A stretch of 64,000 nucleotides of DNA, from the NCBI RefSeq assembly GCF_038396675.1, contig NC_088926.1, positions 16,347,501 through 16,411,500 on the forward strand, written 5' to 3'. This stretch comes from Hydra vulgaris. Its lineage: Eukaryota > Cnidaria > Hydrozoa > Anthoathecata > Hydridae. The notes under the pieces were generated by a model, which made no database searches, had not been told where the DNA came from, and was given only the letters and a program-made list of their open reading frames with translations. Positions 38,301 to 41,300 of the stretch are shown here, piece by piece. Numbering within the stretch: the first letter of the stretch is position 1; each line of letters starts with the position of its first letter. The position numbers and the translations under genes were made by a program.

Positions 38301-41300
38301 GCAAAAAAAAGATTATAGTTGTCTTCTCACTAACCCCTTTAAATATATATCAAAATACTCTTGCCTTTAACTTAATAATTGTTATTTTTAATTTGAAAAT
38401 ATTTTTTTTAGGTAATAAAATTCATTTCCAGCATAAAAACTAAGATTTAGTTTTACTAAGCGGCTATTTAATTATAAACTTCCTCCCCTTCCTTACGCAT
38501 TGGTCATAAATATACTAAACATGGCTTCCTTTAACAAGCCATTTGTGGCATAAAAAGTTAGATGTAATCGAATGGATTTATTATAAAGCATTTGTTTGAC
38601 TTTTTTGATTTGCAAACTACTTCCCGTCTAATTTTTCAGTATATGCTGCAAGAGCAAGTAACAGTCAGTTGTTTAAATCTGATTACAAATAGAAGACAAT
38701 TAAAAAAATCCACATCATCAGAGAAACATAACGCTATTTACAAAAGCAATTATTATTTTCGCGCTCCTTATGAGAGTTTATATATTAAGCTTTTTAGAAT
38801 GGTATTGCACTTGCGTTAATAATATTTTTAATATATCTTTTTTCATATTTTTACAACATATTTTTCTGTTTTAAGTTGTTTTTTTTTTGCTATATTTAAA
38901 TGTATGCTCTAATATAACAGAAGCAAAAAGTTAAAACTTGTAGTTGTGTTTTAATCTGTTAACAACTGTATTTTTAAGAAAGTAATATAGAGTGGGTGGC
39001 CAAATTATTAATGACACTTTACTTTTTTACTAATTTTTAAGTTTAAACTACTTAAATGAAAAAAATACATATCTTGTAGTTATTTTTTATCGTTTTTATC
39101 ATTAGAGGGCTTCATTTTGAATATAAAACAACATAATTACTTCTTCATAGCTATTTATCTTTTTATAAAAGTTTTTAAAATTAAAAGCAAGGTAGTAATC
39201 ATAATATTTTGCAATGCAACCCTTTGCCTCAATAACGGCTTTCAGGCGTCGGAGCATGCTTTCTATGCAGACTTTTGCATTGTTCTGGAGACTGGGGTTG
39301 TTATACTACTCTCTAGTACAGTTTTCTATCAATTGCTGCATGGTAGTGATCAATTGCTGCGTGGTAGTGATGATCTATTTGGTAATTTCCCGTTTTGCGA
39401 ACTCATAAATTTTTAATGCAGTTCAAATCTGGTGAATTCCCCGGCCAAGACAAAACGCAACACTTTTTTTAGCTAGGAATACTGTAACACTCTTAGCTTT
39501 ATGGCACGGTGCCAAGTCATGTATGAAAATATAATTTTCATTACCAGGAAACCATTCCTTTACCTAGGTTTGAAGCCTGTTTTTCTGTACTTGCTTGTAC
39601 TGGTCCTACCTCATGGTCCCTTCCACAATGTAGAAGGAACCCATACCCATGGCTGAGATCACAGACCACACCATTATACTGACAGGATTTTAACCTTTTC
39701 CACAAAGCAGTCCTGTTGGAATTTTTCTCCTAAGCGGCATCGGACAAATGATTTTTTGTCTACCAAGATTTGAAATGTTGACTCTTCTTAGTAATGTTTT
39801 ACAGGTCTGCTTTTCTTCCGAGAAGCAGACCTGTAAAACATTACTAAGATGTTTTAAATTATAAAGCTATAATTTTTTAGTTTTCTTACAATAATATAAG
39901 TCATGTTTACTCTACTCCAGTCTTCAATAGTTATTTTCTGGTGTTTTCTAGCCCATTTCAGTCGCTTTTTTTTCATGGCTTTAATTAAACGTGGTTTTTT
40001 GGTCGGAAGACGATCCATTAAATTCTCTTCAGGCAATCGTCTCCGAACAATCCTTTGGGAGACGTTGATTCCTTCATTATTTATCATTGTAACTAGTTAA
40101 ACTTGAACTTTTTTTCTGTTTTTAAAACAGATGCTCTTGATTTTACGGTCACAAGGTGGAGTAGCGAACTTTTTTTGCCACTTCTGTTGACTCGGTCTGG
40201 TTCTAGGGACACATTTGGATAAATTTTTTTTTTATTCAGTTCACTACTGACTTTGAAACACTTGTAATTGCTGCTATCTTTCTCTAACAATGTTTACAAT
40301 GAAGAAATAAGGTTTTTATTTTCCTACATTTTCTTGGAGTTTAGTCTGAAGACTTGCCCATACTAAAAAAATCAATAAGTGGTGAGAATGGTAACGAATT
40401 AGGATTTATGCATTACATTTAGAAAAAATAATGAATAATTACCAATAACCATAACTAATTAAACCATTAATCAATACTTACGTTTCGATAGTCCTGAACT
40501 CAAAAAACTTGCAAAAAATTGTTCCAAAAATGATTAAACTCAATTTTGAAATAACTCCAACCACACTTTTTAACAATTTACAGCTAGATGAGTAATAAGC
40601 TAACTTAACAAAAACGGTGGACTGAAAGTATTGCCACTATTTAAAAACAATAATAATGGTATCAGTAGCTAAAATACACAAGAGAAGTTATTTAAAACAA
40701 TATATTTGCTCGCTAAATTCATTTAAACTTAAAAATTAATTATTTGACCACCCACTGTATATGTATATGTATATATATATATATATATATATATATATAT
40801 ATATATATATATATATATATATATATATATATATATATATATATATATGTATATATATATATATATATATATATATATATATATATATATATATATATAT
40901 ATATATATATATATATATATATATATATATGTATATATATATATATATATATATGTATATATATAATTAGTAAAAAACACTTATCTAACTTTTATCTTCT
41001 ACTCGGAGTTTCACCATTGCTGGATCATCAGGAACTCTTCCTGATGATCCAGCAATGGTGAAACTCCAAGTCGAAGATAAAAGTTAGATAAGTGTTTTTT
41101 ACTAATTAATTATTGCTCTGTTCTTTAAGAACATTGAGCACTCTATTTGAAAAATACACTAACATAATTTACATATGTATATATACATATATATATATGT
41201 ATATATATATATATATATGTATATATATATATATATATATATATATATATATGTATATATATATATATATATATATATATATATATATATATATATATAT

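Follow-up and report, generated by a model that had tools for sequence, protein, structure and literature searches.

How does a long palindrome built from two opposed hammerhead ribozyme motifs arise, and does self-cleavage have any part in it? The question is raised by a 64-kb stretch of Hydra vulgaris contig NC_088926.1, hereafter called the window, in which a preliminary description had placed a 145-base palindrome at 40964-41108 with one hammerhead core on each strand. The palindrome is borne out, with both arms and both cores located. Judged by its sequence and that of its relatives, it represents the terminal repeat (pLTR) of a Penelope-like element (PLE), set twice head to head in (TA)n, and many such short copies exist. 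The parts of the insertion and its target are the following.

40758-40963, no strand: (TA)n target, left
40964-41034, minus strand: inverted pLTR arm, tail-less, its outer end (site B) being CTAATTA adjoining TA
41000-41031, minus strand: hammerhead core with a GTA triplet, stem III CTCCGAG and a stem I of just 3 bp
41035-41037, no strand: centre, CTC
41038-41108, plus strand: direct pLTR arm
41036-41077, plus strand: minimal type I hammerhead, with stem I at 41036-41040/41073-41077, the core at 41041-41072 and a GCAA loop
41109-41173, plus strand: tail, on one side only
41174-41402, no strand: (TA)n target, right

The two arms, 71 nt each, surround the 3-nt centre, and over the 66 nt compared they differ by two mismatches (GAGTA versus AAGTC), both of which are diagnostic bases. 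Because the palindrome carries a one-sided tail, the insertion as a whole measures about 210 bp (40964-41173) in the order inverted arm, centre, direct arm and 65-nt tail, the palindrome being its left part. The palindrome had been said to lie between two (TA)n tracts; this holds for the left tract, while the right one is split off by the element's own 65-nt tail. The first genome search gave 22 loci, that of the window among them. In each, the tail ATTATTGCTCTG...TTTACA stands on one side of the palindrome only, and each lies in or beside (TA)n, the AT-rich kind of target typical of a Penelope-like element. The same inverted pair, for which a genome search had been proposed, was read in 40 more palindromic copies from 39 other loci, and 20 kinds of centre are found among the 41 copies, again counting that of the window. 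Since so many further copies exist, many with other centres, an assembly artefact is an unlikely source of the palindrome.

Both window cores have the invariant bases previously read in them, with CTGATGA, GAAA and the triplet GTC (plus strand) or GTA (minus strand) in the order that defines a type I hammerhead (CUGAUGA, GAAA, UH triplet). The five base pairs of stem I on the plus strand, the minimal stem III (at most 3 bp) and the GTA triplet and differing stem III of the minus-strand core are likewise confirmed. The GNRA-capped stem II stands in part: C-G, C-G and A-U pairs lie under a GCAA loop, with a U-U mismatch at the base (10.1/11.1) that had gone unmentioned. With up to 3 mismatches allowed, the 24-nt core has 2 matches in the window and 0 in 100 shuffles. 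On the plus strand, cleavage is predicted after 41072, which would leave an end at GAAGATAAAAG. Folding predicted for the 55-nt plus arm alone gives stems I and II without stem III, and at -4.9 kcal/mol it is no more stable than its shuffles (z +0.99). A hammerhead covariance check with Rfam returned nothing at the gathering threshold in the window, and no hammerhead family is among the 42 weak Rfam matches in 40701-41400. Over the genome, RF00008 gave 8 sub-threshold matches, all to other hammerhead families and none to that of the window. A minimal stem III together with the U-U mismatch probably explains this miss.

CAP-domain matches lie upstream (32292-32657, E 1e-11) and downstream (41461-41736, E 0.00057, slightly beyond the cut-off), both on the plus strand like the plus ribozyme, which fits the placement in the intron of a CAP gene given earlier. 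A transcript crossing the palindrome had been thought able to fold either into a hairpin or into a ribozyme. Both folds have been considered, and the choice is uneven: for the full palindrome the folding energy is -108.1 kcal/mol (z -25), against -4.9 kcal/mol for the 55-nt arm alone. Given a hairpin of -108 kcal/mol, the ribozyme is probably silent in such transcripts, and on these fold energies cleavage of the pre-mRNA at the window locus would be unlikely.

The degenerate core CTGATGAN{6,26}GAAACTYCRAGTH has 2402 matches in the genome (1244 + 1158), against 0 and 0 for a reversed-pattern control, and this is a lower bound because the pattern misses the stem III form TTAAAGT. That form, with A for C at the centre, was seen in 8 of 22 arms read (L099, L101, L106-L110 and L113). 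A 34-nt piece of the arm has 1886 exact matches in the genome (control 0). The totals for the core, the 34-nt arm, the cut junction and the H17 context are those of the whole genome, the details of individual copies come from the first 100 matches listed, and the core copies share descent, so that none of these counts is a count of independent events.

At the cleavage base H17, within one fixed 27-base context, 1052 copies have A, C or T and 2 have G, in keeping with the rule that the cleavage base of a type I hammerhead is not G. One more copy with G at the cut, L106, has a different stem III context, and among the first 100 matches listed, found with a pattern that excludes G, the base is C in 48, A in 34 and T in 18. 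Stem II comes as CCA/TGG, TGCC/GGCA, CGC/GCG and TGCCG/CGGCA, each family fully self-pairing; against the other families' 3' strands CCA makes 0-1 of 3 pairs. This covariation between families is mainly one of CCA/TGG against the rest, because TGCC and TGCCG pair equally well with each other's strands and with GCG. At least 3 stem II pairs are kept in 23 of 45 distinct sequences, counted after four odd stretches had been excluded. Stem III reads TTCAAGT in 61, TCCGAGT in 29 and the intermediate TCCAAGT in 10 of the first 100 matches listed. Its self-complementary forms are ACUUCAAGU or ACUCCGAGU, the outermost pair being T-A or C-G according to subfamily; as the loop is of one base, this switching pair could presumably form in a dimer only. 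The patterns at H17, stem II and stem III support hammerhead function in the family's past, and on this evidence the motif is no accident and is real as a family, one whose RNA may self-cleave.

Other hammerhead families were seen as well. At the centres of loci L023, L024, L026 and L029 lies one of CTGATGAGCCCCAAAGGGCGAAACGCGTC type, whose stem II has a canonical G-C as its basal pair, flanked in L026 by an inverted repeat of about 40 bp. Another, in L025, L027, L028 and L030, lies beside (TA)n and has a self-complementary stem III (ACAATATTGT type), with CTGAAGA replacing CTGATGA in 3 of its 4 copies.

The Penelope kinship suggested for the hammerhead cores is supported by longer relatives, in which the arm is the pLTR of an element with Penelope-like frames. 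In L091, pLTR, ORF and pLTR follow each other in direct tandem with a 2503-nt period, plus an inverted piece on the left, and the stretch corresponding to the tail at 41109-41173 is found after the first pLTR, heading towards the reading frame. In the long copies L079, L080, L081 and L082 both strands carry long reading frames (657 aa and, opposite, 349 aa in L079; 342 and 168 aa in L082). Taken together, L091 and L079-L087 show the architecture of Penelope-like elements, a pLTR-ORF-pLTR tandem with or without an inverted pLTR and a one-sided tail. Arms can be as short as tens of bases or can exceed 1 kb, coding sequence included, and the distance from core to core runs from 41 bp to 3.6 kb among the first 100 matches listed. 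The 657-aa frame carries FDIIDFYPSI, YRDDG and QYIG...R...H motifs, which are taken here to be those of a Penelope-like reverse transcriptase (RT) and of GIY-YIG. Since Pfam gave no meaningful match to the reading frames (the only rows being of a sub-threshold unrelated model) and a PDB search with one frame gave none, the PLE assignment rests on these motifs and on architecture.

The window holds a second Penelope-like element frame, akin to those of L080/L081, followed by a hammerhead core that is probably broken, because the next base is C where the family has U16.1.

27889-29217, plus strand: second, 5'-truncated frame with the end KYYIG..., presumably Penelope-like with a GIY-YIG-type end; no Pfam match
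29292-29323, plus strand: second-family hammerhead core with TTGCCGAATGGCAT stem II, 3' of the second frame

Transposase-like frames (by eye) at 26426-27905 on the minus strand stop near the start of this element at 27889, and one may be inserted in the other. RVT_1 frames of other retroelements occur at 5224-5598 and 18438-18917 of the window, as do two young-looking tandem arrays, one at 20084-20442 (28-bp unit x12.8, 100% match) and one at 30030-30427 (25-bp unit x15.9, 99% match). In other loci there are relatives of the same pLTR in which the core is decayed or replaced and the inverted arms persist (L060:1190-1380, L049:1950-2095 and L058:1920-2100), the replacement being CTGATGAGCCTGCTGATGGCAAAAAAAG in 2 of these 3. 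Nested insertions occur in L036:80-412, which has a pLTR palindrome with a further pLTR piece beyond the tail on the outer side, and in L088:289-1106, which holds two pairs within 0.9 kb.

Minimal type I hammerheads of Penelope-like elements are reportedly the subject of work by Cervera and de la Pena in 2014 and by Lunse et al. in 2017. As cited via PMC7761336, they are said to cleave as dimers, and they resemble the Hydra family in their CTGATGA/GAAA/GTH core, very short stem III and location in the pLTR. They are described in tandem there, whereas the cores here are mostly head to head in the listed sample and have U-U at the base of stem II. That mismatch is shared by the type I hammerhead HHR_Amex2 of the axolotl, weak as a monomer and more active as a dimer, which differs in belonging to a 350-bp direct-tandem retrozyme (PMC7229834).

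The head-to-head pair itself had been called unusual. It is instead the majority arrangement: among the first 100 matches listed, which lie on one contig, 26 of the 30 neighbouring cores no more than 4 kb apart are inverted with tails outward, 2 converge and 2 are direct. An inverted pLTR is also part of 'the typical Penelope structure' (PMC3846280). In the Penelope families of Adineta vaga described there, an inverted pLTR stands head to head with a direct one, with palindromes at the junctions, a short 'tail' on one pLTR and an inverted copy shorter than the direct copy. These rotifer palindromes were interpreted as products of self-priming, on an antisense template (PMC3846280). In contrast, no mention of hammerheads was found in that text, and the Hydra genome has more than 2000 cores, many copies being reduced to a pLTR pair in (TA)n. 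Published work already covers inverted pLTRs in PLEs as well as minimal PLE hammerheads that act as dimers. A limited search, in which some sources were available in part, found no description of head-to-head hammerhead pairs in PLEs.

How the pairs arise can be read from the relation between their arms. The arms of one copy are identical in the diagnostic stretches in 22 of 26 pairs among the first 100 matches listed (expected 0.129), and 2 of the 4 discordant pairs are in one nested locus. Across the 41 palindromic copies, which were chosen for similarity to the window, arm differences number 26 against a shuffled mean of 96.7, with 0 of 10,000 shuffles as low. As the centres differ (20 kinds in 41 copies), the palindromes have formed repeatedly. 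Their outer ends recur at two positions, site A (the tail, TTTACA) and site B (CTAATTA), and in 12 of 12 inverted pairs scored against L091 one copy ends at site A and the other at site B. The scored pairs are 11 of the 26 neighbouring pairs and one in L013; those unscored are L080/L081 (second family, no alignment), L088/L096 (nested or crowded), L089 (no tail found) and ones either unfetched or known only from the set of 41 palindromic copies. The inner ends of paired arms are also coupled, with a Spearman coefficient of 0.96 and a median difference of 15 nt against 243 nt after shuffling in the 12 pairs; with L091 added (13 pairs) the coefficient is 0.97 and the medians are 20 and 338 nt, 1 of 20,000 shuffles being as low. 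In 7 of 12 pairs (7 of 13 with L091) it is the tail-less arm that is longer, and the inner ends lie more than 500 nt apart in two pairs (three with L091). Because the arms mostly agree in their diagnostic bases and stop at almost the same place in the element, they were made together.

Self-primed fold-back during insertion is the most likely origin of the arms, and the window palindrome is quite probably a solo head-to-head double insertion, formed by such fold-back, of the pLTR of a GIY-YIG-type Penelope-like retroelement. The pLTR contains a type I hammerhead of minimal form, its stem III self-complementary, of the kind reported to act as a dimer. Reverse transcription into (TA)n would start at the tail end, where TTTACA adjoins TA, and halt with only a few bases copied upstream of the ribozyme. 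The end of the cDNA would then fold back on itself and be copied outwards to CTAATTA, and that end would join the opposite side of (TA)n, which leaves a palindrome tailed on a single side. That one arm was copied from the other is favoured because arm states agree and inner ends are coupled. As the whole story, plain fold-back is weakened by the longer tail-less arm in 7 of 12 pairs, which would call for later central deletions, and the two subfamily states carried by the arms of the window copy suggest two templates or later conversion there.

These same observations speak for a serious rival, possible rather than probable, in which each strand of the nicked target primes reverse transcription on element RNAs and the two cDNAs join head to head. 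The Poseidon element PAc of Anolis cleaves and extends both strands in vitro, with an internal start on the RNA (PMC11167929), and two-strand priming would readily give discordant arms, as seen in 4 of 26 pairs and the window copy, and a longer tail-less arm. The tight coupling of inner ends and the mostly identical arm states, however, would be unexpected from two independent RNAs, and the tail start on one side with site B on the other, as seen in the scored pairs, would be left unexplained. A stem III dimer that both cleaves and unites two templates, the target strands being copied head to head, is an unlikely reading; if it were true, dimerising ribozymes would yield inverted insertions as a side effect, and a heterodimer would have left its trace in the hybrid arms of the window copy.

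Metazoan retrozymes, short non-autonomous hammerhead RNAs that spread as circles, would account for non-coding copies of about 210 bp with a type I hammerhead and with the basal U-U mismatch of stem II that axolotl HHR_Amex2 also has (PMC7229834). Yet retrozymes are described as direct tandems, direct neighbours are 2 of 30 among the first 100 matches listed here, and the pLTR is common to coding copies, which makes this origin very improbable. It is scarcely credible that the palindrome is a cut-and-paste MITE, with terminal inverted repeats, a TA target duplication and a hammerhead by coincidence. Long inverted arms and TA adjoining both ends would suit it, but the combination of symmetric terminal inverted repeats, a target duplication and no RT is not what is found: the arms vary in length and take in coding sequence, the frames are of reverse-transcriptase type by their motifs, and the H17 rule and the stem II families speak against a chance motif. 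The MITE reading was dropped, as the one-sided tail and the coding copies L079-L091 contradict it.

Genome-wide, 3 sites, of which two lie 372 bp from each other, have a (TA)4 tract joined to an intact arm at GAAG, that is at the predicted cut, and at least 5 further cut junctions with shorter TA or an altered arm are among the first 100 matches listed; some cut junctions may start one or two bases earlier, because GTA, followed at the cut by GAAG, shares TA with the target. Cleaved RNA may have been copied in two insertions whose whole length was read: both begin at the cut, L116 running to the tail and L117 to site B, and they are suggestive only. In 17 loci picked for an exact arm without an exact core (3 of their 22 arms had an exact core after all), 2 of the 22 arms start no more than 2 nt from the cut and nearly all others retain upstream ribozyme sequence. 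Since insertions beginning at the predicted cut are few, cleaved RNA would seldom have been the template, and by this reckoning the ribozyme has mostly not shaped the insertions. In 13 of the 30 loci L049-L078, two pairs of which overlap, a BLAST match has an end at unit position 2357-2365, roughly 8 nt before CTGATGA, which is perhaps an RNA start.

A further candidate signal was set aside. In 50 arm-centred palindromes the inner ends peak at extents 10-12, spanning the cut. This spike is not taken to prove cleavage: apart from one or two base changes, seven of the loci have a single centre in common, the TA preceding GAAG is microhomologous to the target, and the span of the search itself bounds the range.

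A limited part for cleavage has a parallel in PAc, a vertebrate element that otherwise resembles the Hydra one in its hammerhead at the pLTR-ORF junction, its AT-rich target and an internal start of reverse transcription matching a tail (PMC11167929). Unprocessed RNA is the main template of PAc, and cleavage is dispensable for its insertion in vitro (PMC11167929). The role of hammerheads in Penelope-like elements has been called a mystery (PMC7761336). With 2402 core matches, many of them head to head with readable junctions, the Hydra genome offers a natural record of where reverse transcription starts and ends, one that lets it be asked whether cleaved RNA ever serves as a template and how the inverted pLTR originates.
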